From Terfezia claveryi (Eukaryota > Ascomycota > Pezizomycetes > Pezizales > Pezizaceae), in contig WHUX01000024.1 in NCBI GenBank assembly GCA_015179025.1, positions 310,001 to 374,000 of the forward strand: a DNA stretch of 64,000 bases, written 5' to 3'. The translations under genes and the position numbers were made by a program. Each line of letters opens with the position of its first letter. Position 1 is the first letter of the stretch. Below are positions 4,885 to 60,883 of this stretch, piece by piece. The notes below the pieces were generated by a model. The model worked only from the letters and a program-made list of their open reading frames with translations, searched no databases and was not told the DNA's origin.

Positions 4885-5148
4885 GTTGAATGGACGGCTG
4901 TTGGTGGCACGATATCGATGGGCGGCTATCGTTGGTTTATAACTGAAGATGGGGATATCGCACGCCATACGCCGTGCGCCTACAATAAAGATTGTGAGTC
5001 TTGTGAGAGCCCCTATTTTGCAACACTGCAAAGAAAGAATGACGTGAGAAAATCGCGTCAGAAGAGCAACGAAAGTTGAGATAAAGCAGTTTAAGTATAG
5101 TGGTTGATCTGAATCTGGCGGGGTCTAATCTGAATGGAGAGAATAGCG

Positions 5149-5168
5149 TAGTCTGGTTGCACTACCCC
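5149..5168 (+). mobile_element. ultra-short insertion 1 (20 bp) with 10-bp duplication
   Basis: The unit begins TAGTCTGGTTGCAC and is 20 bp long. It lies between two perfect copies of GAGAATAGCG (5139-5148 and 5169-5178). It sits in the gap between guanine deaminase and the next gene. Relative to other copies one G is missing in the head. Confidence 0.8.
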
Positions 5169-5291
5169 GAGAATAGCGGTGATGGGAACCTGCCGCCGCG
5201 CCCCGGAGGCTGTGCCGCCACCTCCCCGTTCGCCGACCAACGACGATCAACACCCGCCACACCCCACTCTCCCCCAGTACGCCACCCCTCA

Positions 5292-6302
5292 TCACCCCCT
5301 AACCTCCCCGACAGCCCTCAACCTCTCCTCCACCCTTTCCAACTCCCTCTCCACCTCCTTCGCCTGCTCTCTGTTCCCCCCCCCCGCCCCCCTCCTCATT
5401 TCCCTCAACCTCAGCACAAGCTTTGACTTTTCAAGCAATAACCGACTCCTCTCCTCCGCTAGCCACACCGGCGTAGGGCTCTCCTCCCGTATTACATTCA
5501 ATCCTTCCACGTCGAGCGGCGGCGGCGATGATGGTGATGTAGACCCAGGGGATCGGGAGATTTCCCTGTCTATTCTGCCCATGATTGGGGGTAAATCTGT
5601 TGCTGCCGCTTGGACCCACTGCTTCGTTTGCCGACCCTGACTAATACTACGGCTCCTCTTCACCCCCGATCTTCCGCCACCAGCACTCTTATTCCCCGCG
5701 GGACTCCTCACCGCGTCCCCCTTCCCCTTCAAATACCTCCTCACCTCCCTCGGCACCTCCTTCCTCGGTCCGCCCCCCACCGTCACCCAACTACTCTGAC
5801 TCCCCACCGTCGTCCCACTCACTCCCCCTGTGGACCAACCCCCTTCACTATTCGCAGTCCCCGGCCTCCCCCCACCATCATCACCACCACCACCACCCAA
5901 TTCCCTCAACCGCTTCTTCTCCCTCTTCCTCATCCTCCCTGGGAAATACGGTTTACTCCCCGGTTCCATCCACCACCTCCCCTCCGCCGCAGGCGGGCTC
6001 ACCCAATTTTCCTCAAGCCCTAACTTCGCTGGGAGAGATGTGGCTGGGGAGGGGGATTTTCGAGGAGGAGGGAGCGCAGGGGAGGGAGGGGAGAGCATGG
6101 GAGGGGGTTTGGGAGGGGAAGTGCAGCGGCCACTGATGTTGGCCGGGGGGGTGGGGATTCGCGGGCAGGGGGCTTTGCCTTTTTCGCGGGTGGTGGGGGT
6201 GCGTGTACTGTAGTCATTGTAGGGTGGGATACGGAAGCAGCAGCAGAGGGAGTGGGCGAGGAGGCGGTGGTGGAGTGGGCTAGGTTGCTGTACCAGGGTC
6301 AT
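5292..6302 (-). CDS. hypothetical Pro/Gly/Ser-rich protein with C-terminal coiled coil
   Basis: Single-exon frame of 336 codons from ATG 6302 (MTLVQQPSPL) to a stop at 5292. The N-terminal half is low-complexity Pro/Ser. Around residues 100-135 is a conserved-looking block (LGLEENWVSPPAAEGRWWME, PGSKPYFPGRMRKREKKRLR). The last 65 residues are charged and helical with heptad spacing (WLAEERSRLLLEKSKLVLRL, then EVERELERVEERLRAVG), so probably a coiled coil. I recognise no catalytic motif. The frame could start farther upstream (Met at 6467), but that extension looks like translated leader. Codon third positions are G/C-rich, unlike the surrounding AT-rich spacers, which supports a real gene. 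Function unknown. Confidence 0.6.
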   Translation of the reverse strand: MTLVQQPSPLHHRLLAHSLCCCFRIPPYNDYSTRTPTTREKGKAPCPRIPTPPANISGRCTSPPKPPPMLSPPSPALPPPRKSPSPATSLPAKLGLEENWVSPPAAEGRWWMEPGSKPYFPGRMRKREKKRLRELGGGGGDDGGGRPGTANSEGGWSTGGVSGTTVGSQSSWVTVGGGPRKEVPREVRRYLKGKGDAVRSPAGNKSAGGGRSGVKRSRSISQGRQTKQWVQAAATDLPPIMGRIDREISRSPGSTSPSSPPPLDVEGLNVIREESPTPVWLAEERSRLLLEKSKLVLRLREMRRGAGGGNREQAKEVERELERVEERLRAVGEVRG

Positions 6303-7588
6303 ATTGGCTTTGTTTATATTGATCGCAGGTAGGTAGGTAGGTGGGAAGTCCGTTGAAATTTTTCCGATGTAGATTGACGCTTTATATAAATGCAGTACAA
6401 GTATGTACTTACTCCCCTCAATTTTATACTCACCAAAACAAGGCCGCGTAAGAAGCGAAATGAGCATGAACCGTCTAAACGGCTGGCATTGAGCACAGAT
6501 ATATATAAATATATATGCCCTATATTACACAAATGATCTTCTAGCCTGTGGCTGCACAACAAACCACTACACTGCACGAAGCGGCATACCGCAGATGATG
6601 CATCGACCAGAGATCGTGCAAGCCCACGAAACAATGCAGTATGATTTTTTTTTTTTTTAAAAATAGTCTTATACCCGCGATCGACCTGGTCATGACGACA
6701 ATGTAGAATGCAAGAACGGGTAAAATTTTTTCTTTTTCGGTGGTACAAGACCTAAAGCACCTACCTATTTTTTTTTTTTTAATATCTGCAGTGGATAGTG
6801 AGCGCTGATCATCAATTGAGGATCATGTCTAGGTATATCTGATATGATATCAATATTAATGTATAGATAGGTGTAACTACCCCACGCCTACACTATAGGT
6901 ACGGTATCCATGTGGTTGTAAATAGAAGGCCATGCATGCGTTGTCCGGCCCGTATTCGACAATTCGATTTCTGCCCCCCATTCTGCGTCCGAGACAAACG
7001 ATTATATGTTTCGATTACTTAACCTATTACAGGTACTACACGTGGGAGTTTAAGTTTATTTTTCAAATTTGCATGGTTCTGATTCCTAGGTCGCCGCGAT
7101 TCGATTCAATAGAAATGGATACATGGGGACAGGGCAATTAAGCAGTACGGAGAGGGCCCCCTGGAGTATAAGCCCTAGTTCAGTAAGGAACGAGTTTCGA
7201 TGGTCCGAATTTGAGCAGATGCATGCGTATGTGTTTTGAGCGATGTGGTGTGCTGATGTGTTGTCAAAAATTTAGATTCACAAAGAAGGGCAAAACTCTT
7301 GTGCTGCTACCTACTGGTTACCTACTAACTAGAGCTACAGTATCACGTAAGTAAAACAAAACAACATGAGCTACCAGATATGGGATTCGCTGACTTCAGA
7401 TGTGTAACTGACGCTATTAATCTCTTGAACCGTGGGCAATATCTATGCACAACCTTATTCATCCATGCATATATCGAAGCGAGAAACCTGAAAAATTTTG
7501 GAAGCGTTTCACCAGATCAGGATTCATACCGACAACCATTCCCAATACATTACCGTAAATTAGACAAGTGGTACAGATACAGACCCGG

Positions 7589-7618
7589 TAGTCTGGTTGG
7601 CACAAGCCTCTCGTAGAG
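7589..7618 (+). mobile_element. ultra-short insertion 2 (30 bp) with 10-bp duplication
   Basis: The unit starts TAGTCTGGTTGGCACAAGCC and ends TCTCGTAGAG. It is flanked by perfect direct repeats ACAGACCCGG at 7579-7588 and 7619-7628. The copy at 60143-60172 has the same length and the same last ten bases, and also sits in a 10-bp duplication, so both boundaries are defined. Confidence 0.9.
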
Positions 7619-7744
7619 ACAGACCCGGTATCAAGTAGGCAGTGCTAGCGGAAAGAGGATTTTTGTTCTAGATGACGAGATTTATTGACAGTAGTGGACA
7701 ATAAGAAGATTTGGGCGTGAATGAGTGAAGTTATGTACATATAG

Positions 7745-15162: not shown

Positions 15163-15779
15163 GGTTCTGTCGAGTAGCGAGGAGTAGCTTTTGTTTGCAG
15201 TGGTAGCAGGCTCTGTGTTGTTTGTTTGTTAGTCTGGCAGACAGATGGTGGAATATGGAGGGGAGCCGGTGGTCTGTAGAGGTAGGCACCGGAAACGAGG
15301 CGATGCCAGAGGGAATATCTCAGTGGGTACGTACTCACAGTCCTCGACCCTTTAGTTCTATGCCGTCAACTGTATCAGTTGAAGGCAGGAAGACCAGAAT
15401 CTGAGTTGACGACGTGAAGGGAGGCGAAGCTGATGAGGATGAATAGGTGAGTAAGCGAGACCCTGGTAGCCAGGCCTCCTGCTGTGCCAACCAGACTACC
15501 TCCTGCTGGGCAGTGGCTTCGCTCGTAACCACCAAGCAACCCGGCGTAAATAATAAGCCCTATGTCACCGATCACAACACGACAACACGGCAACAGCTCT
15601 TCGTCCCACAGTTAACAGCGTCCTTTGATTACATATACAGTTCAAATGAGAATGTCGGGCCACCTAGAAAACCCAGAGAAAACATAAGGAACATTTCTTC
15701 TAGCCAAAGAACGGTGTGGACTTTCATCTCATTTTCAAACTGAAGCGAATACAAGGGCAAACACACGTCACAACTATGT
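15163..15779. other. upstream region of the zinc-ribbon gene
   Basis: Probable promoter and leader of the minus-strand gene at 13873-15162. It contains the ultra-short insertion at 15485-15499. Otherwise nothing recognisable. Confidence 0.4.
15485..15499 (-). mobile_element. ultra-short insertion 3 (15 bp) with 9-bp duplication
   Basis: TGCCAACCAGACTAC lies between perfect 9-bp direct repeats CTCCTGCTG at 15476-15484 and 15500-15508. Removing the unit and one repeat leaves a continuous sequence. Confidence 0.85.
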
Positions 15780-18185: not shown

Positions 18186-18220
18186 TAGTCTGGTTGGCAC
18201 AACACCCTCGTAATCCACCT
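18186..18220 (+). mobile_element. ultra-short insertion 4, boundaries uncertain
   Basis: It begins TAGTCTGGTTGGCACAACAC. The flanks GTGGATGCGG (18176-18185) and GTGGCATGCAGG (from about 18221) are similar but not identical, so the duplication is only suggested. The right boundary is a guess. Confidence 0.5.
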
Positions 18221-18279: not shown

Positions 18280-18583
18280 TTATCTGCACCCCAGGGGATC
18301 CCCCCTGCAAATTTCCTAGCTAAGCTTGGCGTCAACCGTAGCAAAAAACGTTCACACCCACATATTTGTACTGGGGAGGGGCTAGTGCAAGCCAGACTAA
18401 TATTTGTATTCATACAGCAGCAATATTCTCAGAGACTTTATTTCTTTGGTGAAGATGGAAGATAGAATCTGATAAGATTCTGCCTATGATAAAGTCACGT
18501 GTGCTGTCTTAAAGTGGCCGATTTAAGACGCTGTCATGTCAGGAGAAAATTTGTAGCGGGGAAATCCCCTGGGGTGCAGATAA
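18280..18583. mobile_element. MITE-like inverted-repeat element, about 304 bp
   Basis: Ends TTATCTGCACCCCAGGGGAT and its inverted counterpart (ATCCCCTGGGGTGCAGATAA) are at 18280-18299 and 18564-18583; similarity continues inward for about 15 bp to AAATTT. No coding content. The target duplication is not clear. Confidence 0.65.
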
Positions 18584-20439
18584 TGACCCCTGCATAGGCG
18601 GATTGCCTCGTTGCCCAAAACCAATCACATCAGAACTATAACTAAATTAAAATAAAGATTTAAGAACATTAAACCCTAGGTATATTCAAGAATTCCTGAA
18701 TACATTTTGGCGGATTGGTCCTCTCTATAGTTTCATCTAATCACAACCATTCTAGGAAAAAGAAAAGAAAAATCGCTTAAATCGCTACTTTAACCCTAGG
18801 TGCTCCAGGCGGGTTCCGCTCGTATCGTCCATTTGGATTTTCTGCTGATATGTCTTATCCAAATCATAGAGAATTTTATCTATGTTTTTGATATGACTCT
18901 TCAAGCCCTTCTAGCTTTCACTTGTGGACACCCGCGAGTCCATCCAACGACCCTTCCAGGAAAAGCATGACGAACATTTGAGCCTCCCGATTTGTGCGTC
19001 GCCTTGAGAAGCACTAGAGGTGAGATTGGAGTTCATATTAGTGAATATTTTGAAGTTCGGGGAATCCGGCTCTTCCCATAGCATACGATGTAATCTCTAC
19101 AACTTCTGCTCACAGGATGACCTCCGGATGCAAGCTTTCTTCCCTCCAGCAGAAATAGTAACCCCTATCAAAGCATTACTGGTATTAAAACCATTGCATA
19201 TTGATAGGTAGCACTTACACTGTAGTTTTGTCAACGCTTTTGAACAGCATCTCGATTCTCTTAGCTACTCCATATGGACACTCAAAGCTCTTTCAGCAAG
19301 TCAACAGGAGAAACCCTCGCTCAAGGCGCATTTTCCTTTTTGGCTATTCTGGAATGCATTTCAGATATCTACTCCATGTGGAAATTCTTAACCTATATGG
19401 CAAGACCAAATTAGGACTAGCTTTTCTGCGTGATACCAGAAAGGGCAGGGCCAAATCAGGACTACCTGGTAGTCTGGTTGGCACAAACCCCACAAAGACC
19501 TACCTGTGTTGTTTCAACCTTAGGGAGTATCGGTACAGTATTTGACAGTACAACCGGTCAGCTAGGTGGGTAAAAGAGGGCTTGATAAGCACAAAAGAAG
19601 GCAGTCAGTCTATTGTTAGTTCACTTTAAATACATAGAATGAACAGTAAATAAAATCCACCTGACACCTTATACCCTGGTAATTTTTATCCTTTGGTAAA
19701 AGAGCACTTTTGAGTACATGTACCCCGTATGATTACGAAACTAATTTGAGATATAACAGGTATTGTATTTATTCGATACCTACCTGTTGACTGCCCTGCC
19801 TCCGTCGGAGTTCTGCTGCCTTATATTTCCCAATCACTCAAACTTCAGAATGTTAACTGCAAAGCAATGAATATTTTTCAGGCTTATCTCCGGTTCACAT
19901 AACTCAAATTGCACTAAGTAGTGTAGTTTGGCGCTTCCTCATATCATCAACTGGAGAACAGATTAAACTGGCATCTGCCTTGAAATTGTGATACCTTCCA
20001 ATCCCGGTGACTTTTACCACCATACATTGAATTTCCAACGTCTTTTGAAGGCAGCTATGTTCGGGGATATCTTGCTATCTTGATTTCTTCATTTATTTAT
20101 GTGTTCAAGCAAGTATTGCTACTGTAGAGTACTACAGCTGTAACTATGTAAGGAGTGTGTATACAAACAAACGAGACCAACCCCATCTACAATATATACC
20201 TAATAACCATAGAGTTCCCAATGCCGATGAAGTCAAGCTGTACAAGCGAAACACCACAATCTAACCCATATGCATGCAATCACAACCCGTAACCAAGAAT
20301 TACCTTCGTCAAAGCCATGGTCTCATCTCACATCTATCGGTCTATACCCAATATCCAACATAAGTAAAACAGAAAGAGGTATCACCCAACTCTACCCCCT
20401 ATCCTCCCTCCTATCCTCCCTCTTACATCTACTATCTGC
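18584..20439. other. gene-poor spacer
   Basis: No gene can be supported. It contains an ultra-short insertion near 19470. Open stretches at 19020-19545 look like remains of coding sequence broken by stops, but match nothing I recognise. The last few hundred bases are the 3' flank of VIP1. Confidence 0.4.
19470..19496 (+). mobile_element. ultra-short insertion 5
   Basis: TAGTCTGGTTGGCACAAACC is followed by about 7-10 further bases. The flanks GACTACCTG (19460-19468) and GACCTACCTG (19497-19506) form an imperfect 9-10-bp duplication. Confidence 0.65.
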
Positions 20440-26094: not shown

Positions 26095-29000
26095 ATGCCT
26101 TCAGTGGCCCAGGCTCCGCCAACAAGCGGCAAAGGACTGAGGTCGCAGACCCCCCCCAAAAGCCGGCTCCACGCATCAGCACCCATTCCCGCATTCTTGC
26201 TCCATACAGGGTAAGACCTTAAAGGAACCTCAATCTTCAGGACCTTTCTAACACGCTTCATCAATAGTCCCTCGGCCATATCACCTCCCCCACCGTTCCC
26301 TTTAGCTGCATTCCTAGAGGCTCCCAAACCTTCCAGATCACCACCTCCGTCGGGACAACCCTCCAAACATACGACATCCGCCGCCTCAACCTTGTCTTTA
26401 TCTCCTCCCCAGCCACTCCCTCCGAGATCCGTCGAGTGGTAGCGTGGAAAGAATACGTCTTTGCGGCATTCGGTGGGACGGTGTCCGACTCAGCACATGG
26501 AGCATGGGTGTTTAAGCGAGGAAAGAAGGTCGCGGAGCTGGACGAGCCCATGGGCGGATGGAATACAAGTGGGTGGAGGAAGATGTTGATCTTTGGAGAC
26601 TGGATTGTTGGGGCATTCGGTGATGGGCAAATAGTTGTGTGGAAGGTTTCTACCAAGGAGGTGCACACAGAGATACAGCCGACAAAAGGCGGGGGGATTG
26701 TCGGTGTCATCCACCCGAGTACATATCTTAACAAGGTTGTCGTTGCAAGGACAGAGGGGGGTTTACAAATCTGGAACGTCAAGACCGGGTACGTCAACTC
26801 CCTCCTCCATCTACAAGTCCTCATGAACTAACGATAGCTATAGGAAACTGATATATACCTGCACCCCCAACCTCGGCGACGCAAAGATAACCTCCCTCAC
26901 AAACACGACACATCTCCACCATATCGCCTTCTCCACCACCACTAGCCAAATTCGCATCCACAACATCCTCGCCGACACAACTCTCTTCACCCTAGGCCCT
27001 AAGCTCCCCCCCACCTCCACCACCTCCGCAAAGCGAGTCGTCTCCCTCTCCTTCTGCACTGACTCCTCTGTCGGCGCCGGGACCTCCCCTGAAGGCAAAA
27101 GAATCACCGCGAGTGGCTCAGGCCGAATTCTCGCAGCAGGCGACACAGATGGCGATATCACTCTTTGGGATCTTGAAAAGCGCCGCATCGTAGGTGTCAT
27201 GCGTGCCGTACACAGCAGCACCAGCGGGGGGATACTCAAGTGTGAGTTTCTAGCAGGACAGAAAATCATGGTCACTACCGGCGGAGATAACAGTCTGAAG
27301 GAATGGATCTTCGACTCACCACATACTATCCTCCCCCGGATCCTCCGCCAGAGAAGTGGTCACTCCGCACCACCTACAGTTCTTGCTTTCCATAATCCCC
27401 AAGAATCACATTTTCTCCTATCCGCATCGCAGGACCGTACACTTTGGGGCATCTCCCTCCGCAACGATGCACAATCCTTCGAGCTCTCCCAGGGCTCAGC
27501 AGGAGTATCACGGAAAGCAAAGAAGGCGAACCTGAAAGAAAATCTGGTTGAGACAAAAGCTCCCTCTGTGACAGCAATCGCCATTTCAGATTCTGACGGC
27601 GCAAAACGTGATTGGGAAAATATAATAACCGCACACCGAGGGGAAACAGCGGCGAGGACATGGCATTATGAAATGAAAAGGTTAGGAAGATGGGTCTTCC
27701 ACACGAGTGATGGCGGGGAAGCCAAGTCAGTAGCTATTAGTGCATGTGGGAACTTCGCGTTCGTGGGGAGCTCGAAGGGGTCCGTGGATATGTGGAATTT
27801 ACAGAGTGGGTTGAACAGAGGCTCGTTCCCACGGAAATCACCTGTGCCCAAGAAAAAGAAGGTCCAGAAACAACCTCAACTTCCCTCCGTGGAATGGAAA
27901 GGCCACACAGGAGCAGTCACAGGTATCATTACAGACGCTACAAACAATTGGGTCGCCACCACCGGCCTAGATGGGAAGATCAAATTTTGGGCCTTTCTGA
28001 CAGGCAAACTCCTTCACGAAATTGATTGGTCCCATACCTCAACCGGCATCACCGCCGCCCGTCTCTACCGCGACAGCGACCTCCTCGCCCTCGCCTGCGA
28101 CGATTTCTGCATTCGAGTCATTGACACGGAAACGAGAAAAGTCGTCCGTGAATTATGGGGTGCTGGTGGCAGAATCTCCGATTTCTGCTTCTCAAATGAC
28201 GGGAGATGGATACTCTCAGCGAGTACAGACTCGGTCCTCAGAATCTACGACCTTCCAACTGGACATCTTATTGATGGAATTCGTACACCGAGTATCATTA
28301 CTTCGTTGGCTTGGTCTGGGAAAGGGGAGTTCCTTGTTACGGGGCATGTCGATTCGGTAGGTGTTGCACTGTGGACGAATAGGACCCTATTCACGCGGAT
28401 CCCCACCCGCCGCCTGAAGGAAGAAGATATCATTGACCTGGCCCTTCCTTCATCCTCCGGCGAAGGGGGGACCTCACTCATCGATTCCGCTATCAACAAT
28501 AATCTTACTACCTCTGAAGATCCAACTGAGGAAGAATCCGGTGTATACATCTCCCGCGACCAGCTCTCAGACCAACTCCTCACCCTCTCCCTCGTACCAA
28601 AAACTCGCTGGCAAACACTCCTCCATCTCGACCTCGTCAAACAACGGAATAAACCTACTTCCGCCCCCCAAAAGCCGAAATCAGCACCATTCTTCCTCGG
28701 TGCGCTCTCGAGCCTGAAGGATGGGAATACTGGGCTGCTACCAAATATAAACCCGCTTTATCCCCCGACGGCAGAGGAAGCGGCGCAGGCATTGGCAGAG
28801 CAAGAGGCAGAGAAATCGAGGATTATGAGACTGGTGAGTAGGGATAGTATGCTTATAAATGGAGCGATGGGGGTGAATACTTCTTCCTTGCTTCGAGCAT
28901 GTGCGGATATATCTAGCCCATCAGAGACAGCGTTTGAGAAATTTGTGGCGCACTTTAAATCCCTGCCTCCTGCGAGTGCGGATCTGGAGATTCGATCGCT

Positions 29001-29382
29001 GGATACTTCATACTGGGTCAACCCAACTTCCGAGGATGATGATGACGAAGATGGTTCACCATCACCAACTGAGTCTGACACTGAACCAGAGGAAATAGAT
29101 GAATTAACAACCTTCATCCACGCACTCACCTTCCGACTTCGTCTCAATCGCGACTGGGATCTTGTCAACGCATGGATAGCCGTGTTTCTCAAAGTCCACG
29201 GCGAGCTGATCATCGAGATATGTTCTACCGCGGAAACTGCGCGGGGAAAGAGGGGGAGGCGCGCAAGGAGATTTAGGGAGGCATTGGTGGAGTTCAGGAA
29301 GGAGGAGAGGAGGGAGGGGAGGAGGGTTGCGGATTTGGCGGGATATTGTGCGGGAGTCGTGGGGTTTTTGAGAAGTCGATGA
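26095..29382 (+). CDS. UTP21: U3 snoRNP protein Utp21 (WDR36 homologue), WD40 repeat protein of the SSU processome
   Basis: Exons 26095-26210, 26268-26788 and 26844-29382, with introns GTAAGA...TAG and GTACGT...TAG. The product (about 1,050 residues) starts its conserved part with RILAPYRSLGHITSPTVPF and FQITTSVGTTLQTYDIRRLN, the hallmark first blades of Utp21. WD40 blades follow (GRILAAGDTDGDITLWDLEK, FLLSASQDRTLWG, NNWVATTGLDGKIKFWAF, RWILSASTDSVLRIYDLPTG). The C-terminal Utp21 domain is present (RAIRLNRD-like RLRLNRDWDLVNAWIAVFLK, then EALVEFRKEERREGRRVADL). It acts in 18S rRNA maturation in the nucleolus. Odd point: the natural ATG at 26095 is one frame off from the conserved exon-1 frame; an 8-C run at 26150-26157 lies between them. 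The start is therefore uncertain. Confidence 0.9.
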
Positions 29383-31512: not shown

Positions 31513-32208
31513 AACAAATATCCGTTTAGGCCAAAACCATTGCTAAAATTAAAGCTCAGGGGTTTTTCAATAAACGTGCCGTGAGTGTGTAGCTGAAAGG
31601 TGAAAACCTAGAAGCCTAAGAAGGTCGATGAAAAGCTGTTGCTTTAGTAGTCTGGTTGGCACACTCCCTCCATGTCTGCCAACCAGACATTGCTTCAGCC
31701 TCATCATGTCACCCTCCTGCAATTTCTGATAATGTACGGTCTACCTTACCGGTATGTACTGTACAATGAATTCTAGAAGGCTAACTTTCTGTGTCTCGGA
31801 ATTACCCTTCATAGGTTGTATGGAAATATGGCCAGCAAGGCTGAGAGAAATAAAGATGTTTAGGTGTCTCAGCTGGTTACGCCATCAACGGGTCAATTAA
31901 TGCAATGCCTAGCACATATAATAATCCTATACAGCATTTAATATTATCTTCATTTCCAATCTAATCAACATAGCATACCACTTCTTCGACATGGTATAAT
32001 TACACTATTGTGGTGAATCCAAAGATTCAAGTCATGGCGCACAAAATTCCCATCTGCACGTTACACATATATAATCACCCGAACAATATGCACATTATAT
32101 AAATTCAAATATTTTCCAAACTAAGGTACATTTACAAATCCATTTTCCCATCCATCCAGGCATTCGAACCCTTTTACCACTGACCCACCCACCTAACCCC
32201 AACTTGAT
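31513..32208. other. spacer with palindromic ultra-short insertion
   Basis: AT-rich, no gene. It holds the 42-bp insertion at 31648-31689 and the 3' flank of the GH131 relic. Confidence 0.4.
31648..31689 (+). mobile_element. ultra-short insertion 6 (42 bp), palindromic ends, 9-bp duplication
   Basis: This copy has the constant block at both ends in inverted orientation: GTCTGGTTGGCA at 31650-31661 and TGCCAACCAGAC at 31677-31688, with 15 bp between. The flanks TTGCTTTAG (31639-31647) and TTGCTTCAG (31690-31698) form a 9-bp duplication with one mismatch. It is the only copy seen with two heads. Confidence 0.85.
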
Positions 32209-36200: not shown

Positions 36201-37148
36201 ATCTTCGAAGATTGAAGATCGCCACGGTCTATGATTCGGTGTAAGGCCTTCCCTCAGAGTTATCCTAAATGTCTCTCGGGACGCCAGAGGCAGTGACGAT
36301 ACCGGTTGGAACAACACCATATTCTGTGTTATCACTGACCTTATACCTTCCTCTTCTATCTCTCCGAGCCCCTTCCATATATCTCCTTCTAATATATCCT
36401 CCTGTTCCACCCGTCGAACCTCCACCCATATGCCCCTTTTCCACTCCCTCCTCCTGCCTCTAATGATGTCCTCCACAAAGCACAAGTCTATGCCTTCCTT
36501 TGCTGCATCTATCACCCATGCCTCTCTCTTTCCTATTCTTCCCTCGTCTGGCCCCAACCCTTTCAGCGTATGCAGTGTTTGATCTACACTCCCATCTTCT
36601 TTAGGTTCGTCCCAGATCCACATTAAATTTGTTTTATGGTTAATCTGGTGGCGAAGGTTAATGTGCTGCATCCACCGCTTATCTAGGATAATATCATAAT
36701 CCGTCAAGTCATATATAGTAAACCATGACTCATACTTATATGTACCCACTCTTAGCCTTAGTTTAATCACGCGTTTGGGAATTCTTGCTGGGTTATGCGT
36801 GTCAGCTGTTCGTACCCTCATGAACCCCATGTCCTTTTCCTCTATCACCACTCCCGGAGTATGTCTCAAGGCTTCCGCATAGCTCGTGCTCACAAAGTTA
36901 TCTGACGCCCCATCATCCTTCAATATGTATGCACTCTTCTGGCGTGTTTGAGTGTTGTTGGTATTAGACCCCCTCCGTTGTGCTTGCCACCGTGTTGGTG
37001 CTGTCTTAACTTCTGATATATAACCTGTTTTTGGGCTTTTCATTGGTGCTGCTCTGTGATGTCTCTTTTGTGTGGTATTGTGAACATTAAAATCGATTTG
37101 TCCATTGAAACGGAGAAGATTTGCCTTTGGTGAGTAGCTAACATACAA
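33264..37148 (-). pseudogene. Gypsy pol: protease, reverse transcriptase, RNase H, integrase, chromodomain
   Basis: One minus frame interrupted by TAG at 34518-34520 and 33936-33938. In order it has: an aspartic-protease-like region with DDGASDNFVS; reverse transcriptase with VLFVPKKDGKLRMCIDYRRL, LDLASGYHQV and YLDD; RNase H (LRTDASKFAMGAVLMQ, TYDRELLAIKEAI); integrase zinc site (HEAHNSELAGHFG ... CDTCQ); integrase catalytic core (IGIDFIVGLP, VSDRD, TDGQAEKAN); a GPFKVIW-type connector; and a C-terminal chromodomain (VERIVDHERTG, WKYLVKWRRFDDEHNEWL). The chromodomain makes it a chromovirus, which usually targets modified chromatin. Apart from the stops the frame is well preserved. Confidence 0.92.
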
Positions 37149-37255
37149 GTCCTCCGTTTCTATATTATCCTTGTTCCTTACTAATACTTCTATTCCCTTA
37201 TTAATAATATTCCCAATACCATTTCGAGAGACCTCACTAGGGGTACGCTTTGCAG

Positions 37256-38914
37256 CTAAGCGACCCCTCTGTCTTTTGCTTGAACCTCCGCATCCTCATC
37301 ATCGTCCTCAACCTCCGTAATCCTAGCCTGAGCATCACGGCGTGCATGTGATTCAAGGAGTTTCTTATGTCCTGGGCAGTCCTTCTTAACGTGGCCAGGG
37401 CTATGGCAGTGAAAGCATCCTTCTGTCCAGTTCTTCATCGTGGAGCTTGGCTTCTCCTTGGTCTTCCCCTTGCTGCCTTCTACCGTACCCCCTTCCCTTC
37501 TGGGACTTCCCTTACCCGACGCTCCTTTCCGCTCGCCTCTCCCCCGCCCTCCCCCGTACCTCCCTCGATTTGTATTCATAGCATAGATATCCATAGCATT
37601 ACCACCTTCCGAGGTAGTGAGGGGGCGTGCTGGTGTTACGCCAGTAGGTAGATTATCAAACCCTTCAATAGCAATACTTGTGTGGCGATTGTGAATATCG
37701 TCCATTTTGCTGCAGAATGCCATGGCCTGTGTGAGGGTGGGCCTACGTTTTCCCTCCTGTAATGCTACCCACTATACATATGCCCCATAGACCAAGCATG
37801 CGGGTCCACTATTCTTCTCTTTCGTTGCTGCATATTCGATCTTCATGATGTAGCTGTCATAGATGGTTGCATCGAGTTCATCGTTTGTTCTTTCCTTCTT
37901 TACTATCTGTAGCCACAATCTTATTGATCTGAATGTCTCATTGAAGGCTGTCATGGGTTTCTTCGGGTCCCAGGCTAGATTTGCGAATGCCATCTTCAGT
38001 TTGTTGAGGTAATCCATTGGAATGTATTCTTGGGTGAGTCTTTGCTTGAAGTCTTCCCATTCAATCCTGTTCGAGGAGAGCCAGGTCAGCTGTGCCCACT
38101 TCGCAGCTTTCCCAGTCAAGCATTGTATTGCATAGTCTCCCCATGCTCTCGTTGACCCCGTCGTTCCTGTCTCCAGAGCTCGGAGCCCGAAGGCTCGTTC
38201 TAGTGCACATATAAACGTTATCACACTTTCGGCATCATGTTGCCCCTCATACTGTGGTAATCCTGCCACGTTCTTGAACGTAAACCATCCGTGCTTACTA
38301 CTCCTCTCACCCTCTCCCTACTCTCTCTCCTTGTCTCCCCTCTCCTCTCCCCACCCTCTCTCCTTATCCCCTCTCTCTTCCCTCAGCATTCCTCCCCCCT
38401 TTGCTAATTCCACTCTGAGGCGTAGTATCTCTTCCTCCTTAGCCCTCAGTTCCCCTTTCAGTTCCTCACTTGCAGTGCCCCATTGCTTCTGGGCTATCCC
38501 TAGTCCTTGCTCATTCATTTCGAGTCTCTAAGCTTTTTCCTTCCATTGCCTACACTCAAGGCTTGCCTTGGCTACTAGGCGTTGGTAGTAGTCTTCTTTC
38601 TTCTGCATTTCTACATCCAATTCCTCAGCCTTCTTTTTCCACCCTTCCAGCCCCTGACTGGCTTCAGACAGGAGTTGTTGATAGTAGTCTTCTTGTGCTG
38701 TAGCAGCTAACTTCGCTGCTGCTGATACTGATATCTGGGTTCCCTCGTCGATCACCCTTTGCCTCCATTCGTAGAACTGAGGTATACGGTCAGCATATGG
38801 TGTATCGAACGACCCTTCATTGAACAGGTATCCCGGCTGAATCCTCGGTGTGGCCGGAGGTGCCAATGACTTAGGGTCCCTCCATGGGTCCATGTTGTCC
38901 TGGTTGTAACTCAT
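37256..38914 (-). pseudogene. Gypsy gag with zinc knuckle
   Basis: Continuous minus frame from ATG 38914 (MSYNQDNMDPWRDP) to the final stop at 37256, but broken by in-frame TAG at 38528-38530, 38318-38320 and 37772-37774. The N-terminal half is a charged coiled coil (LRAKEEEILRLRVELAKGGG). The capsid-like middle contains AIQCLTGKAAKWAQL and FKQRLTQEYIP. The C-terminus has an Arg/Gly-rich basic stretch and a CCHC knuckle, CFHCHSPGHVKKDC. The pol frame is offset from gag, so expression would need frameshifting or a separate start. Confidence 0.88.
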
Positions 38915-46660: not shown

Positions 46661-46711
46661 GGGTGTTGTGCCAACCAGACTAGGGTCCAACCAACCAGAC
46701 TAGGTCCAACC
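46661..46711 (-). mobile_element. cluster of ultra-short insertions 7, split by the Copia element
   Basis: GGGTGTTGTGCCAACCAGAC TA at 46661-46682 is followed by GGGTCCAACC, AACCAGACTA and GGTCCAACC. On the other side of the Copia element the sequence reads GGGTTCCAACC (44694-44704) then TAACATGTAGGGTG. Removing Copia reconstitutes an insertion of about 31 bp between GGGTTCCAACC and GGGTCCAACC, with a further partial copy behind it. Confidence 0.75.
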
Positions 46712-47027
46712 AGACTATTCTCAATTGTAGTGTCATTACTCTCACTTGCAGAAATTAGAACTAACTTGCAATTATATCCAGATCCCGCCCCAAGTCATCT
46801 AGCCATCTACTGTGGTGAGGTATTACCCTACATTCGTGTTCTATGTAACTACCCCATGAATTTTATACGAAGCATTAAGTCGAATTTCACCTCATAGTTG
46901 GAATGAAACTGTACGGACTGTGTAGAAACATGGACTGCTAGAATTGAAATACTTATATAAGTGCTACGCAAACTGGTCCAAAGCTAGTGTGTATTTCATT
47001 ATACCTCTTCGGTAACTGTAGCTAACT
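46712..47027. other. spacer between Copia and the long inverted-repeat element
   Basis: AT-rich, no gene or recognised repeat. Confidence 0.4.
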
Positions 47028-48792: not shown

Positions 48793-48814
48793 GGGTGTTG
48801 TGCCAACCAGACTA
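48793..48814 (-). mobile_element. ultra-short insertion 8 (22 bp) at a transposon-target junction
   Basis: The unit ends TGCCAACCAGACTA. It begins immediately after the right terminal inverted repeat (…GATACTA, 48792) and ends immediately before AATTGTATC (48815). The left side of the element has no such filler. Confidence 0.85.
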
Positions 48815-48823
48815 AATTGTATC

Positions 48824-52600: not shown

Positions 52601-54545
52601 AGATTAAGCTACTTCAGCAGGGCGGGAAGCAGGCCTACTTATATGATGAGATGACGAAGAAGACCCGAGTGAGGGATGAAAATATCATATGCAGCTGTGC
52701 TGTGCGTTTTCCTTGGTTGGGAAGGGCGAAGGATGGACTCTTGGGATGGATGGATGGGAAGCCAAAAAAGGCCCAAGCCACTGGGTATTGGATTAATTTG
52801 CTGTGAGCTGACCTGTGGTAACCGGGGAAGGCACTGATCCTCCCTGCGCTACGTTTTTGGCGAGATATGGGAATCCACCAGGTTGGCTCGGGCGGGCTCT
52901 TTCATTCGATGTCTGTGGACCAATCGCAAGAGGTCTAAGAGGAAACCAATCCAAACTTACCGGCAATCTCGAAACAAAATCGCAAATACGGAGTATACAA
53001 GCAAATAGTCTGGTTGACAAGCGGCTCAAGATTCTCGGTTATGGTGCCAGCAAATGCCCGCACTGGTCAGACAATTTTGTATCAAACAACCCTCTAAGTA
53101 GGACAGAGCCAAAGGTAATTGGCTGAGCTCGAATTCGAAAATTCATTAGTGGCTCCCGGCCCAGGGTACCAGACTGCCGGGAGGGGTGGGCCTCTGGTTC
53201 ACAGCACTAATGAAGACCAACAATTTGGTACCGTACCCTTTCCGTGTTTCGATAAGGCACAAAAGCATGAAAATGGTACGGTACTTGGACTGATGGAGGC
53301 TGGGATGGACCAGGATCATCAATATCAGATGAGGTTGTAAGGATTCCCTAGGCCTTGGTCGGTGATTCTACGCTATTTAGGCAGGCTGCAATCTCGAATA
53401 AGATGGGACATAAGGTGGGATATCGGGACGGGATGATCACGGCCATTAGGGTGGTGATTCAACAAACCGGACAGAAAACTCTCTCCCTTTCACTGCAGCA
53501 GTGAGGGGATGTGTGGGTGGGATTTGTTTATAGTAAAACAGAAGATTGTTTCCTTGCTTCTTTTTTGCTGGTGGGTCTCGAGCTTTCCCATGGTTTCGCC
53601 TCCGTCTTAGAAATTAGACCTCCAAAGACCGTGGTGGGGGTGGGTGAGTTGGGAAATCCGCAGGTGAAGAAGAATAAGTACGTAGGAATTTGGAGAAGGT
53701 TGGGGTTGTAGCCATACTGGAGACTCAAATGACAAGACAGGACGCCACTCGTGATCCCAGGTCCAGTGAAATGTAGGCCTGGAGAAACGTTCTACATCTG
53801 CGTCTGAATCTGTGACATTCAATCTATATTCTTGCACCCTAAGACTTGTGAGACATGCCCTATCGGTCTCACTTCTTTCACCACGGCTAGGAGAAACTCG
53901 CTCTGCAATAATGAAACAAATCTCCCACATATCGGGTTTCCTCTTCCCCTAAGCCCCAATCTAAGACCTCAGGGCATCACCATAGCCGCTAGCTCGTACA
54001 TAATTGTCGCTCCCTTTTTCCCCAACCCACCCACTCCATCCCCACCGTGCCCAAGCCAACCTCTGGCCCCTGCCGTCAATCCCTGCATCTCTTGGATCTA
54101 ATGCACAAAAGGGAGAGCGTCCTCGCCATGCCCATGCAAATGCCCCCCAGCCCAGATTCGCTGCAAGGCATGGAAGCTGAACCGAAAGGTCGGTAGCTAG
54201 GCGTGCGTCTTGATTCAGGTTAGTGCGTTGCCGATTCAATAATGCCGCTGCAGGTCGATCGTTTGGGTATGTTTGTAATCTCCTGCTGCAAACGAAACGA
54301 ATTGAAACAAGGATATATAAAATCACAAAAAAAAAAAAAACATAGTCAATTTAAGCTGGTATATAATCCGCACAGATCGCGCGGCAGTTATCCTTTCATG
54401 TTTTAACTTTTGGTGTCACGAGTCACGAGGACGGAGCGAGCTGCCATAATCGGGAACGAATCTGACAGCCGGCGGGATCTAGAAGTGGTGAGTGTCCTTA
54501 ATGTGCTAGTTCGCCAAACAAAGATCAAGTGCTTCTGAAGCCCAC
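49627..54545. other. long gene-free region
   Basis: Nearly 5 kb with no gene I can support. Several frames of 60-130 codons occur, including a hydrophobic minus frame at 51676-52050, but they lack starts, conserved motifs and coding composition. Contains ultra-short insertion 9 at 53003-53016 and T-rich tracts near 50620-50670. Confidence 0.45.
53003..53016 (+). mobile_element. ultra-short insertion 9 (14 bp)
   Basis: AAATAGTCTGGTTG lies between perfect 6-bp repeats ACAAGC (52997-53002 and 53017-53022). The copy at 57102 has the same AGCAAA bases in front of its TAGTCTGG. Confidence 0.6.
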
Positions 54546-54821: not shown

Positions 54822-57454
54822 TTGATGACGACGGGCATTAAAACATTCATGCGGTCATAGGGTCAGACTATCCACCTCTTATTGGATCGTGAGGTGACGG
54901 TGGCACAATTTCATGTCAACCTTAGATTTTATGATATCCACAGAAGCCTGTTCCATGAGAATCTTGTGGGTTTAAGCGTAGAAAACATATGCCTAAAGAG
55001 AAAGAATCAGATATGGGGAATATGATCAACTTGTTCATCTAGAATCTCTCATATTAATTTATCGCTCCATGATCACCCGTGACCCTTTACCAGTGTGTAC
55101 AATGCCCCTTGTGCCACCCTCTCTTGCATACCTCGTATATTAAGCTATGGCATTTTAGGCATTCGGGCCTTGAATCATGGCTAATCAAAAATGGAGGAAT
55201 GATTTCTCGATAAGTTGAGATGTGACAGTATGTATTATCCACAGGAATATGCGAATAACTCGCCGAAAAAACCTGTCCGGCAAGAATGTAGGTCATTGTC
55301 TTTTGAGATGGAGCTTCAAGGCAAATACTTTTTACGCATGTAGTGCAGAGAAAATGCATGCAATTGGGTGCTTGTTCACTCGGTATCTGTCCACACATAC
55401 ATCACACTGAAATTTAACGACTCTACTGCTCTGTGATGACTTTCTTGGATGCGACTGGAAATCACCACCTGCCATAGCCGTATTTTGTGAGCCTGGTATA
55501 ATCCCGTATATCCTATTCCACAAGAGGTATGTCGTGTGGCGTAATGCCCTGAATCCGCTCCATGGAAGGGAGTTATTATATCTATTGATCTTTTCCATAC
55601 AGCACTTTGGTGATAGCACGTAGCTGAGGGTCATGATCATGCACCATTGTAGAACCTGACCTTGACTGGTAGGTATACCAGCACGCGGAATTATGTGAAT
55701 AATTTGATAGGTCAGTGTGGGTGTGCCTGCTTGAGTCTGGAAGTGCCAGGTTGGGCGTTCTCGGCTGATATGCTAGATTCAAAGGATGGAAAGCTGGGCT
55801 CTTTGGCACGGATAAACTAGAATCTTGTGCTCGTGGAAGTCCAGCAGTGCTTCGTCCAGGTGCAGCCCCTAATGGACTGGTATTTGTCGGTGCCAGAGGC
55901 AGTCAGTAATATAACGGCAGCGTTTTGCTCTCCTGTTGGCTCCTCTTTTTTTTTTTTTTTTTTTTTGTCTATACATCTGTGGAGCCTTAGGCTCCCTAGT
56001 TGTTGCTGGGCTGAGATCAAAACAATTATTAATAACCCCGCTGTCAGGTGGTAGTCTCTTATTCGCCGCCAATCCCTCTAAATTGGTGGTAATTATGATT
56101 GCTGTATCGATGTATGCATTCACCTCCGCCGGGCAGCCGCTCTTCTCTATAAGGTGGTGGTTGGTGTACCTAGAGAGGACGGCGGAAATTGTAAGGGCCC
56201 AGCCCCGATTCTAGGCATTGGCGTTCCCTTTCGTAGAACACACAGGCCCCCAACGGTACTGAGAGGAAACCTCCCTCAATATACTTTCTCTACCATGTTG
56301 TGGTGGTGTACTTGATACCCGCAGACGTTCTATATTCTCGTATTTTATCATTACCGGTTGCTCTTTTGTATTAAACGTCGACCAAGTCACCAATCCAGGG
56401 TTTCTCAGAAGATAATCTCATATTCTAGTCATGACCCATAATAGTCTTTTATGACGTCTTGTATGGAGGACCCATGAATGCATCCATATCCCACCTGACT
56501 GGGGCCACATTCGAGCACAGAAATTGAACCTTTTCCAGGCATTGCTCCCCGTTGCTCCCCCATTTGTATTGTTCAGCTGTTTCACTCGCAGCTCTACCTT
56601 CTGTCTTACCTTCCATGCTTTCCGATCTGATGCAAACATAGGTACAAAGAAGACTTCCAGATTCAAGGGCGCTTTGGACACTAGGTCATTATCCACTGTG
56701 TCGCTCCCAGAGGATCTCTTCGAATTCTGCTCTGATCTCGTCCTATATCCTTTCCCCTCTATTACATCACTCAGTTGACCGCAAACATACATAGCAATAA
56801 GGTATTGGCCACTCCGTACCTTCATTGGAGGTATTCCAATAAATTGACGGAGCACGAGGGGATACACCAATTGTATAATCATAGGTAGTTCCAAGACTTA
56901 GAATATCATCCGGTGAAATAGCCTACTTTAAAAGAGGTTGCTATTTAATGTCTCCCATCATTTGTACCTATACAAAGGAAAGTTCACGTTTTTTACGCAG
57001 TAAAAATTAAAGGTTGTTGTGATTAGGTTGCATTGGATTGCTGCAGCCACAATATTCTTAAAATAGGTTCATCTTTTCTAGAACAACTTTATCGAAGCAA
57101 ATAGTCTGGTTGGCACAACAGCCCTGCCCCGTTTGATGTAACGATAGCAAAATGATAACCGATAAGGTGTTTCTTCAACTTCATAGTGGCCTATAATAGA
57201 CCTTTGACATTGATTTGCTTTTCATTTTTCGTTTTCTAGCTATTACAGCTCGCCATGGGAAATAGTACATATAAGCGGAATGCAGCAGACCATTACAAAT
57301 AAGAGGTATATCAGAAAGTCTTGTAATATTGCATGTCAGGAAACTTAAAAGGGACGGTGAGAAGTGTCAGTTTAATAATTTAATTTCACAATATATTTCG
57401 TGAGCCGCAAGTAGTCTTATCCACGAGCAGTCATCTGTCCTCCATAAATCTTCA
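54822..57454. other. region with decayed coding remnants, unassigned
   Basis: Minus-strand pieces suggest former genes: a Cys-rich block at 55100-55400 (CGQIPSEQAPNC, CTTCVKSICLE, CLKCHSLIYEVC) and a helical block at 56418-56894 (FASDRKAWKVRQKVELRVKQ). Stops and frameshifts separate them, and I cannot name the families. A T-run lies at about 55948-55967. Confidence 0.35.
57102..57146 (+). mobile_element. ultra-short insertion 10, boundaries uncertain
   Basis: It begins TAGTCTGGTTGGCACAACAG. The left flank CGAAGCAAA resembles CGATAGCAAA at 57147-57156, but imperfectly, so the right boundary and duplication are tentative. Confidence 0.45.
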
Positions 57455-57720: not shown

Positions 57721-57817
57721 AGCAGTGTTGCTATCATGCAATCCACTGGAATAGTCTGCCAATGTACAACATGAGGCATCCAGCACTTCCTAGGGACATT
57801 ATTCCGATTCGGTTTAT

Positions 57818-59399
57818 TGCTTGACCTGTGCCTTTCGGAGCCCTAGTTGACGTCTTCTGTACTTGATGTCAAGGAGGGGAGATGGGAATTTTGAGTGAGC
57901 CTCCCGTGCAGTGGTCAGGATACCTTGTCCAGGGGCAGGAACACTTCGACTGATCTTGTCCATAGTGGTAACAGTCATTGCCAAATACCATAGATTGGGA
58001 CACCCATTTCCAATGCCAGCTTGGCATTCATGATGAACTCACAACTCTGAGACTCCATAAATCTAGATCTGGTAGTGGTGCCAACCAGACTAGTAGTAGT
58101 GGTAGGGAGTGACATTTCCGCTGGTCTTCCATGAGCGAACTCCTTCTCGGCATTGCTATGGCTTGCATATCGGCAAACTCATATGAACCATCCCCTGGAA
58201 ATCGTGAAAATCACCAACTATACAGATTCTGGCCTTTCCTTCTATTACGGAATCAACAACGATGTCTAGTGATTCAACAGTGGTGGCACATGCTCCAATA
58301 GGCGTTTTAATGGGCCTAGATGAAGACAAAAGAACATGTTAACCCAAGCAGCCATGGTATTGATGAAGGACTCCGGCAAAATATCCTTTTGAATAGGCTT
58401 ATCCATCCATCTATCCTTGTACATTCCCCTGAGAGCCGTCATACCACCTACACCTGAACCAATGCAATTACCAACCTCCAATAAATGGACATTCTTGTAA
58501 AATTCGTATGGATCTATCACACCGACAGAAAAAAATGCTTTGGTGGCACTGATCAGAACATAGAGGGTAACAGGATCGACCTGGGAAGCAATGTCCTCTA
58601 GAATGCCATATTGTTTGCCGTCCGAACTTGTTGGAATTTTGCTAGCAACTGAAGATCGAATTTAAGTGCCTTTGGGACGAGAATAGAGGCACCCTTCTTC
58701 AAACGCACAGTGTATTCACCTGTTTTTGAGATTTCAAAGATATCCACCTTGTCTCCATGATGCCTCTTGAACTCTTTTGCAGCCTCCTTAGAGGCTTCAA
58801 ATTGTTCAAGGCCCTCCTCAATGACAACTTCTTGGAGAGCTCCTTCTTCTTTGGGTCGTACTCGCCAAAAAGCTCGGACTCGATCAAACGGATTCCTGAG
58901 TGCTCAAGAATATGCTTCTCATACTTGGTCTTTCATAGGCTCATCGGGGACTTGGGTAGCTGGCCCTGCTCAACGTACCGCTGCCATGATTGGCACAGAT
59001 GCAACAGGGGCAGCTGCTGAAGCTTCTGGTACACCTGACGGTTCAGAAGCTGATACTACTGGCTCTTCCGGTTGGAGTTCAACATCGTAATAAATTTCCT
59101 TTACATCCTTGTTGTAGCAGAGTATTTGGGAGTGCAGCATCATATGAATCGTATTTTGCAGCTAAAGTCCGTCGGCCATCCCCCCCCCAAGTGTATCTAA
59201 TCCCACCCCTTTATATATAATGGAATCCATGGGTTTACCAACCAGAAGGACCAATATGTTCCGTAGCTTTTCTTGAAGAATCACATCTTGTGATTCAATC
59301 CTCCATTTATAAGCCCAAGGTGGACAAGAGATTTTGAGCCGTGCGCAAAGCTTACCATCGTATTGGGCTTGCAAATTGGTATGCTAGAAGCTCCACCAT
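57818..59399 (-). pseudogene. fatty acid synthase alpha subunit (FAS2) relic with internal deletion
   Basis: From 59399 the minus strand reads VELLAYQFASPIRW, IESQDVILQEKL, RTLAAKYDSYDAA, ILCYNKDVKEIYYDVELQPE and an Ala/Pro linker ending AAAPVASVPIMAAV and QVPDEPMK: the N-terminus of Fas2 up to the acyl-carrier domain. At about 58925 it jumps to [20 protein letters not shown], the start of the ketoacyl synthase region, so the carrier and ketoreductase domains are missing. It continues through [73 protein letters not shown] (active Cys present) and [20 protein letters not shown] to [12 protein letters not shown]. Several frameshifts and stops make it dead. It lies divergent from FAS1, the gene-pair layout known in fungi. 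Confidence 0.9.
58079..58095 (-). mobile_element. ultra-short insertion 11 (17 bp) inside the FAS2 relic
   Basis: TGCCAACCAGACTAGTA lies between 7-bp repeats GTAGTGG (58072-58078 and 58096-58102). It interrupts the part of the ketoacyl synthase region that normally reads as a Thr run before a GFMESQG block; here the relic has that Thr codon run on both sides of the insert. Confidence 0.85.
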
Positions 59400-59827
59400 T
59401 AGGATCTAACTAGATACCCCACGTCAATCTTCCCTTTTTTTGAGGAACTGTCAGAAAATCTACGTCAACTCATGTTCCTGTTCTGTATGTATATTTGCCC
59501 CTAGGAAATATTATGTACGTAAAGAATAATCTGGTTATGGGTACTGTGTAAACCAGATGTGCCTAGGGAAGCGAATTGGATACACAGGTAAGGCAATGGG
59601 AAAGATGGACCCTGACCTGGCACAAGATCAATTCAAATTGAGAGATCGCACGACAGCAGGCCAATCGTCCCCAGGGAGAATAAGGAGTAAGGAAGGTCGA
59701 GGTAGATGTGGCTCGATATCCCTCCCTCATATGAAGAACCCCGACCTCTAGGCCAGGGCTTGGCTTTCCATTCCCGTGTGCATATTTGTTGGGAGTCTAG
59801 TCCCAATTGAAATAGCTTTCATGACGG

Positions 59828-59841
59828 TGCCAACCAGACTA
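59828..59841 (-). mobile_element. ultra-short insertion 12 (14 bp)
   Basis: TGCCAACCAGACTA lies between perfect GACGG repeats (59823-59827 and 59842-59846). This is the minimal form: the constant block alone. Confidence 0.75.
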
Positions 59842-60142
59842 GACGGGTATACGACGAGGCTAGGTATATGAGGGCAGAGAAGTGAAATGGTAGGTGAAGG
59901 TAGTCTACTTCGGACCATATTCTTATTGACCTTCTGCCTGCGTATGCATGTAACATCTCACGATGACGATGCATTCCAGAGAAATTGGAATGAACATTAG
60001 TTGAATTTGCTGCTTGCGTCCTTTTTAACGCTCGCCCCTATAGCACTGAACTTAGGAGGTTGTGAATTGTGAATCTTTTGAGCGGAGTTTCTCTCGACGT
60101 CAGGCGTTCGGCTATATGCAAACATTGGATGAATTGTGTCTC

Positions 60143-60172
60143 TAGTCTGGCTAGCACTAGCCTCTCGTAGAG
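60143..60172 (+). mobile_element. ultra-short insertion 13 (30 bp) with 10-bp duplication
   Basis: It begins TAGTCTGGCTAGCAC and ends TCTCGTAGAG, with perfect 10-bp direct repeats ATTGTGTCTC at 60133-60142 and 60173-60182. It has the same length and right end as insertion 2. Confidence 0.9.
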
Positions 60173-60883
60173 ATTGTGTCTCGGGCACTCTTCACGCTGC
60201 AAATAGACTAGTAGCTATGCTTATCGCTGATAAGGATTAAGGGTCCCTGAGCACTAAAAACGGCAGCTGGCGTAAAAACGGGTTTGGTCCCTCCAGTCCT
60301 GTCCCAACGTTTCCTCCATTTTTGTCGACTAAGATCCTGCACTTCAGAACGTCACCAATTGTGCACATCAACCAGAGCAACGCGGGCGGATTCGTTCCTG
60401 AGGTTGCATCAGCCAGGGTCAAGACCCCTACATACATACATAGGTCCTTGCCAACCAACCATTCTAGGTCTTAGCAGCCCACCGCGTCTCCAGACGGAAC
60501 CATTGTGATAAAACTCTGGCGTTGGGGCAGTTGGGTTCTCAACAAACTTCATTTATGAAAATTTAATATTATTTTTGTAGAGCTCTCGCATGATTTGCCC
60601 CTTCTATGCAGTTGGCCGGCTGTTAACGTAACGTGATGTCCCCCCTGCGTAATCCGCATATCCTAGTAGCACACTGCTAGTGAGGTATCCTCAATGAGGC
60701 AGCCATACAGGAACTCTCCAACCCCCTCTCAACCCCACCTCTCGCATCTCCTTACTCTCCCGTTGTTGGCTAGCCATCAACTTCTGGAATCTTATTTCCC
60801 TAATTCTCACGAGCGCTGCAATTACAATCCCCACGACTTGTCTGGTGTCTGTCGTTGGTCTTTCTGTAGTTAGTTCCATTAAG

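Follow-up and report, generated by a model that had tools for sequence, protein, structure and literature searches.

We analysed a family of very short insertions that recurs in a 64,000-nucleotide stretch of the Terfezia claveryi genome (bases 310001-374000 of contig C157; the genome comprises 72.6 Mb in 794 contigs), a stretch which we call the window. The units of this family, thousands of copies of about 10 to 34 bp, share one end, TAGTCT, many of them lie between two copies of a 9-bp target sequence, and in the subfamilies that we measured their other end falls at a few discrete points set by mini-hairpins. We give an even chance to the reading that they are copies of an ultra-short nuclear hairpin mobile element of about 26-34 nucleotides (nt), pasted or copied from its TAGTCT end into symmetric breaks with a 9-bp stagger.

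An earlier note on this DNA had pointed to a short recurring block; the block is real, and more abundant than that note had it. Within the window, 17 places match TAGTCTGGTTGGCA with at most 2 mismatches, while 100 dinucleotide shuffles gave a mean of 0.54 and never more than 4. Ten copies are exact (7589, 15485, 18186, 19470, 31648, 46669, 48801, 57102, 58079 and 59828). Ten of the positions listed earlier thus hold the exact 14-mer, one of them being moved from 46666 to 46669, and the others had to be amended: 5149 carries the variant TAGTCTGGTTGCAC, 53006 has one mismatch and 60143 has two. In the whole genome the exact 14-mer occurs 3,193 times, where base composition predicts 0.52 and the reversed sequence, used as a control, occurs 0 times; TAGTCTCGATCAGACC has 363 exact copies in the genome, against 2 for its reversed control. 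In a scan of all 6-mers, the 9-mer placed before TAGTCT recurs 8-60 bp further on in 68 of 283 occurrences, the overall rate being 1.3%; ACGCGC is the sole 6-mer with a higher rate (15 of 59), and several others come close with smaller counts. Since TAGTCT takes in families which do not continue as TAGTCTGG, the end common to all of them is about 6 bp long. The 14-15-bp block is one large family within a wider TAGTCT-ended set, and the shortest units bearing a clean 9-bp duplication measure 9-12 bp.

We looked for flanking duplications in a set of 88 exact copies chosen by position (the window and loci L001-L030, L050-L069 and L102-L121); they represent most, not all, of the 100 listed places of C1 and C2, copies too near the end of a locus and identical repeats having been dropped. 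A 9-bp duplicate with at most 1 mismatch and within 60 bp is found for 46 of these 88 copies, compared with 1.74% of 20,000 random positions of the window. The claim of true target duplications is thereby upheld, flank repeats being far commoner than chance allows. A larger set of 143 copies takes in loci that were picked as two-ended. Classed by their longest exact flank match, 36 of these copies have 9 bp, 11 have 10, 7 have 8, 10 have 7, 6 have 6, 12 have 5, 9 have 4 and 6 have 11-13, while 46 have none; of 5,000 control positions, 0.02% have a longest match of 9 bp and 5.9% one of 5 bp. The duplication has a sharp peak at 9 bp, and not the spread over 5-10 bp first described. At two paralogous empty sites the target is present as a single copy without the unit (L095 compared with L006, 84% identity; L070 compared with L006, 83%).

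The bases of the target mirror each other around the centre of the duplication: at the 76 sites with an exact 9-bp duplication the correlation is 0.47, for a permuted mean of 0 and a standard deviation (sd) of 0.17. The mirrored preferences are C or G at positions 1 and 9, T3 with A7, A-1 with T11 and A-5 with T15. This symmetry is modest evidence which suggests that a dimeric enzyme cuts both strands alike, and the duplication of fixed length taken together with the symmetric target argues for a dimer making staggered cuts.

The fixed end and the variable end that had been noticed in the window were both found again. The variation of the far end is real and is not random: copies stop mainly at points defined by hairpins, and their maximal lengths are discrete. 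Among the 46 duplication-bearing copies, the insert measures 14-15 bp in 18 (the sharpest class of length), 25-36 bp in 22 and more than 40 bp in 3, the remaining three being of 12, 16 and 23 bp. We then considered three subfamilies separately. The first, F1, is TAGTCTGGTTGGCACAACACCCTCC-ACA-GGAGG; it has 24 exact copies genome-wide, several of them within duplicated segments. Five of the F1 loci fetched by this 33-mer have one context in common, of which L141 is a near-copy, and two have another. The 18 distinct rows comprise 10 of exactly 33 bp, 2 of 32 bp (a pair in which the duplication starts with G, one of the two being L141), 1 of 29 bp, 4 without duplication and a spurious call at 21 bp. 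Because the 33-mer served to select them, these rows show only that the copies do not run on. The first 25 bases of F1 occur in 232 copies; of 20 that were read from among these, 13 have a duplication of at least 8 bp, of which 10 measure 26-29 bp and end in the loop or one base past it (two of these ten belong to one duplicated segment), and the other three 23, 32 and 38 bp. As an observation apart, one F1 insertion is found with near-identical flanks on six contigs (L122, L127, L132, L133, L137 and L141), as part of a multi-copy segment.

F3, which reads TA[GTCT cgatc AGAC][CCTC gta GAGG], is the cleanest subfamily with two mini-hairpins. From the F1 results and three F3 copies already known, we predicted for it a length of 26 bp, with a stop at 22-23. 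A duplication is present in 16 of 24 F3 copies, with lengths of 25-27 bp in 11 (among them four of 25 bp, all with a duplication starting with G), 22 bp in 3, 20 bp in 1 and 34 bp in 1. Among the 19 copies fetched after the prediction, 12 have a duplication, with 8 at 25-27 bp, 2 at 22, 1 at 20 and 1 at 34, so that the predicted lengths are found in 10 of these 12 fresh copies. The F2 sample was picked by its first 22 bases (195 copies in the genome, 28 read, 20 of them new), and its 18 duplication-bearing copies measure 31 bp in 8 cases (the unit at 7589 included), 26-28 bp in 7, 29-30 bp in none, and 32, 34 and 35 bp in one each; 6 of the 8 copies of 31 bp share the identical end GTAGAGA. 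A wider F2 pattern which allows CCCC variants gives 31 bp four times, and 25, 29, 30, 32, 35 and 46 bp once each.

The far end in the three measured subfamilies is a mini-hairpin, discrete and not random. Their full lengths are 26-27, 31 and 33 bp, where the terminal mini-hairpin closes, and the shorter copies mostly end in the terminal loop or 0-1 nt past it, rarely inside the far arm of the stem. By eye, the 15-bp class of F1 ends one base past the first loop, GTTG gca C, as does the 12-bp TAGTCTCGATCA in F3; in F2, the 15-bp point falls inside the loop of the hairpin favoured by folding. Nine units were folded: F2, F2b, F3 and F4 form two clean hairpins, F1 and F1b have a clean terminal hairpin and a weak second one, and F7, F8 and F9 do not show such a pair. 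Discrete maximal lengths speak for a discrete donor and not for fragments of something longer, while stops at the ends of loops point to hairpins acting in strand synthesis or in the processing of the donor.

Bacterial one-ended transposition of the Tn21 type is recognised by one end that is fixed, another that varies and true duplications, and our units show all three features. A transposase could join a short double-stranded fragment of a terminal inverted repeat (TIR) at one side of the break, with end joining closing the other, which would suit the apparent fillers seen at the far junctions of some copies. We nevertheless find this explanation improbable, as random fragments would give neither discrete lengths nor ends defined by loops.

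The mechanism that we have in mind for the hairpin element starts from the fact that the first end, TAGTCT, is AGACTA-3' on the opposite strand, and that several subfamilies allow a second mini-hairpin to be drawn between their two ends. A dimeric endonuclease or integrase would make a symmetric break with a 9-nt stagger, at which the AGACTA-3' end of a free hairpin of 26-34 nt, RNA or single-stranded DNA, would be engaged. A strand would be synthesised from the TAGTCT end inward, until synthesis runs off the far end of the donor or halts at a hairpin, the new strand perhaps folding back. The loose end would then be joined to the other side by end joining, with which the fillers agree, and priming on both sides of the break would give two-ended palindromes. 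The donor may be RNA or DNA; we lean slightly towards RNA, which would be copied in the manner of target-primed reverse transcription. That such a free hairpin itself replicates via target-primed synthesis, with no kilobase-scale parent and with loop-defined copies as dead-end products, seems to us possible, if a little less probable than the contrary; it would then be the smallest nuclear mobile element known. The earlier note had already put forward an enzyme that inserts the end of an RNA or DNA at staggered breaks, and as a class of explanation this has stood up.

That note had offered truncated copies of a longer parent as another possibility, and here our results are different. An all-against-all comparison of 219 copies, of which 127 have at least 300 bp downstream and 95 have 1,000, reveals no long parent, nor do these copies share a longer repeat with the block at its core. 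Matches extending more than 67 bp from the shared end occur in 10 pairs, lying in duplicated, nested or tandem sequence or in the arms of Mutator-like elements (MULEs). In 8 of the 10 the upstream sides match too (L012, L033, L039, the L070 arms, L071/L077, L092/L093, L122/L141 and window 46702/46717); the other two are a second L122/L141 match and the MULE arms L070/L074. A search for distant pairs that carry matching 9-mers, in sequence consisting mostly of short loci, brought up a single weak and unlike hit. We must also record a 58-bp tandem repeat at 1678-1794 of L033, found in L060 too, which opens with the family end (TAGTCTRGTTGGCA).

The absence of a parent bears on the strongest rival, that the units are scars left by the excision of a rare DNA transposon. 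This transposon, of the cut-and-paste kind, would have TAGTCT ends and make 9-bp duplications, and would leave one or both end overhangs and the duplication at each vacated site. Its non-transferred strand would have to be cut well within each end, at 15 or about 29-33 nt, and for such a long stagger there is the precedent of the P element, 17 nt according to the accessible part of its description (PMC7776569). A DDE transposase suits the fixed 9-bp duplication and the symmetric target, a single-stranded overhang stopping exactly at the duplication would explain the precise boundary of one-ended copies, and the retention of both overhangs would yield palindromes. Genome-wide, 50 pairs of exact inverted 14-mers lie at most 30 bp apart (about 3% of exact ends). 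In a simple test, 43 of these 50 two-ended units could have taken both arms from a single end sequence; 18 of the 50 have a short arm of 14-15 bases, too short to judge the subfamily, 7 are mixed or nested, and some pairs are identical and possibly duplicates. At least one, the pair at C1:16783, consists of two neighbouring insertions, each with its own duplication. Against the scars stand the missing parent, the want of a convincing long-range pair in a search limited by short loci, and the consideration that each of several subfamilies would need a rare or vanished parent of its own; nor do scars predict end points defined by hairpins. We rate this explanation as unlikely, while placing it ahead of the other rivals. 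If it is true, one genome holds thousands of records of long-overhang excision, and the cut positions of the transposase can be read from its sequence.

As for transposases, Merlin-type transposase has no match in the genome, and the P-type RNase H domain has none either in a search that was silent in the controls too. The hAT dimerisation domain has at least 150 matches, many with few or no stops; hAT duplications are of 8 bp. MULE domains give 21 matches at 20 loci, and the three MULE termini that are readable (L070-L072) begin with GAGATAAC, GAGAAAACC and CGGACTGACT and are flanked by duplications of 9-10 bp. These MULEs, the 9-bp target duplication and the 50 two-ended units would all agree with miniature inverted-repeat transposable elements (MITEs) of the MULE family, in which two-ended foldbacks of 23-58 bp would be mobile and one-ended copies damaged. 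We hold this to be very improbable, the least likely of the rivals. No TAGTCT-bounded element is seen in ten of the 20 MULE loci (L070-L078 and L047, with termini read for three only), and of the 46 position-chosen copies with a duplication 38 are one-ended, the other 8 having an inverted end no more than 60 bp away, so that two-sided terminal inverted repeats are not the rule. Under a looser definition, which asks for an inverted AACCAGACTA at up to 60 bp, 10 of the 88 count as two-ended, 8 of these with a duplication. A palindrome as the full-length parent of one-ended F1 was likewise considered and rejected: its 53-bp form has no exact copy among the 50 two-ended units, where the pattern would catch it. 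Apart from this, the long inverted arms of two MULEs share the micro-insertion at mirrored sites (146/201 and 7619/7674 in L070; 517 and 7512 in L074), and the arms therefore seem to have been homogenised after insertion.

Several results weigh against our preferred hairpin element. Forty-two of the 88 position-chosen copies have no recognisable 9-bp duplication; decay, nested insertions or longer structures that we do not see may account for them. The symmetry of the target amounts to about 2.7 sd, and the preferences for A at -4 and for G at 12 are not mirrored. Three F3 copies (26, 26 and 22-23 bp) were already known when the F3 lengths were predicted, some lengths fall off the predicted classes (3 of 18 in F2, at 32, 34 and 35 bp, and 1 of 16 in F3, at 34 bp), and with the wider F2 pattern lengths of 25, 29 and 30 bp appear too, in one copy each. 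The fold energies of the nine typed units are unexceptional (z from +0.6 to -1.8), only four of them having two clean hairpins. Duplications of the type made by long interspersed nuclear elements (LINEs) usually vary in length, so that a fixed 9 bp suits an integrase or a transposase better. Finally, the inverse-orientation copy of the flank which is expected of snapback on an attached strand is not seen; hence either a free donor or priming on both sides is required to explain the palindromes.

The window carries the gene for Utp21 (27199-29382), whose product is 100% identical over 727 aa to Terfezia claveryi Utp21 and 69% identical to that of Kalaharituber pfeilii, and a fungal-type fatty acid synthase beta gene. 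This means that the window is nuclear DNA. Contigs reach 1.1 Mb, and a mitochondrial location does not apply.

The nearest known structures are the mitochondrial double-hairpin elements of Allomyces and other fungi, which are a few tens of bases long and consist of two adjacent mini-hairpins, as some of the truffle units appear to do, and which like these occur in many dispersed copies. The accessible part of a paper on sponge hairpin elements describes those of Allomyces as having no flanking duplications and as possibly moving via RNA (PMC2800124). The GC clusters of yeast mitochondria (GC42 and others) are also short palindromic mobile units, with AG or ACT at their flanks only and with copy-and-paste under discussion, as far as the available text goes (PMC4478555). 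Since neither is nuclear or reported with 9-bp duplications, as the truffle units are, we keep the likeness and refuse membership. Excision of P elements would likewise leave end fragments and a target duplication at vacated sites, the part available on a P-like element of zebrafish giving duplications of 8 bp (PMC10983969). P elements have long parents, whereas the truffle units have none among the copies compared. Severely 5'-truncated copies of LINEs and of short interspersed nuclear elements (SINEs) also have one fixed end, one truncated end and target duplications, and variable 5' truncation with a fixed 3' end is indeed what we find, with stops mainly at discrete points. Such retroposons possess an internal promoter or a LINE-derived tail and measure about 80 bp or more, whereas our complete units, of 26-34 nt, are too short for an internal promoter and have a duplication of fixed length. 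Unlike our units, the short internal eliminated sequences (IESs) of Paramecium that are solo TIRs are bounded by TA. They resemble the truffle units as tiny nuclear insertions derived from transposable elements, with a first size peak at 26-28 bp, but are removed from the somatic genome and are mostly unique-copy, in what could be consulted of their description (PMC3464196).

Nuclear units of this kind were found nowhere described in our literature search, outside which most subscription journals lay: queries on micro-MITEs, solo TIRs, Terfezia, truffle MITEs and hairpin elements returned no matching description, and those with the 14-mer, its complement or their 12-mers only papers titled on other subjects. 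Programs that look for repeats, as they are commonly run, miss insertions as short as these. Similar ones may go unnoticed elsewhere, and could explain small insertions and deletions with 9-bp duplications. Should the unit itself be the replicator, nuclear mobile elements could be as small as about 26-33 bp, and those built of hairpins would cease to be a speciality of organelles.

The copies of the window are collected in the table. Redrawn on the assumption of a 9-bp duplication, they make 16 rows, 8 with a duplicate at 1 mismatch or less and 8 without (18186, 19470, 46669, 46704, 48801, 53006, 57102 and 59828). In the unit at 60143, the substitutions give a better pairing of the first hairpin, GGCTAG-CA-CTAGCC, by eye and as a single suggestive case.

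Table. Copies of the TAGTCT-ended family in the window, with their flanking duplications
Feature	Positions	Strand	Remarks
TAGTCTGGTTGCAC subfamily unit, 21 bp	5149..5169	+	9-bp duplication AGAATAGCG on both sides
F2 full-length unit (..AAGCCTCTCGTAGAGA), 31 bp	7589..7619	+	9-bp duplication CAGACCCGG
Short unit TAGTCTGGTTGGCAC, 15 bp	15484..15498	-	9-bp duplication AGCAGGAGG
Fixed-end copy	18186..18199	+	exact 14-mer; no recognisable duplication
Unit TAGTCTGGCTTGCACTAGCCCCTCCCCAG, 29 bp	18371..18399	-	9-bp duplication TACAAATAT; missing from the earlier note
Fixed-end copy	19470..19483	+	exact 14-mer; flanks partly alike, no 9-bp duplicate (at most 1 mismatch)
Two-ended foldback, 42 bp	31648..31689	+	inverted ends TAGTCTGG/CCAGACA; 9-bp duplication TTGCTTTAG/TTGCTTCAG, 1 mismatch
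Three copies in a row, read as nested insertions	46669..46717	-	each apparently inserted in or beside the last
10-bp unit inside the nested cluster	46693-46702	-	9-bp duplicate (at most 1 mismatch)
Fixed-end copy	48801..48814	-	exact 14-mer; duplication not found
Fixed-end copy	53006..53019	+	14-mer match with one mismatch; no 9-bp duplicate
Fixed-end copy	57102..57115	+	exact 14-mer; flank repeat of 6 bp only
Short copy, 12-14 bp, within a CACTAC repeat	58081..58092	-	9-bp duplication, 1 mismatch
Fixed-end copy	59828..59841	-	exact 14-mer; flank repeat of 5 bp only
F2-like unit, 31 bp	60143..60173	+	9-bp duplication TTGTGTCTC

The window contains no tRNA gene, and an Rfam search of it gave no match at the gathering threshold. 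The accessible portion of a study of the Terfezia claveryi mating-type locus reports no transposable elements there (PMC13152902). In the window, a Ty3-type long terminal repeat retroelement lies in pieces on the minus strand at 33264-38269, with frames that are gag-like, reverse transcriptase/RNase H, weakly integrase and chromo-domain.

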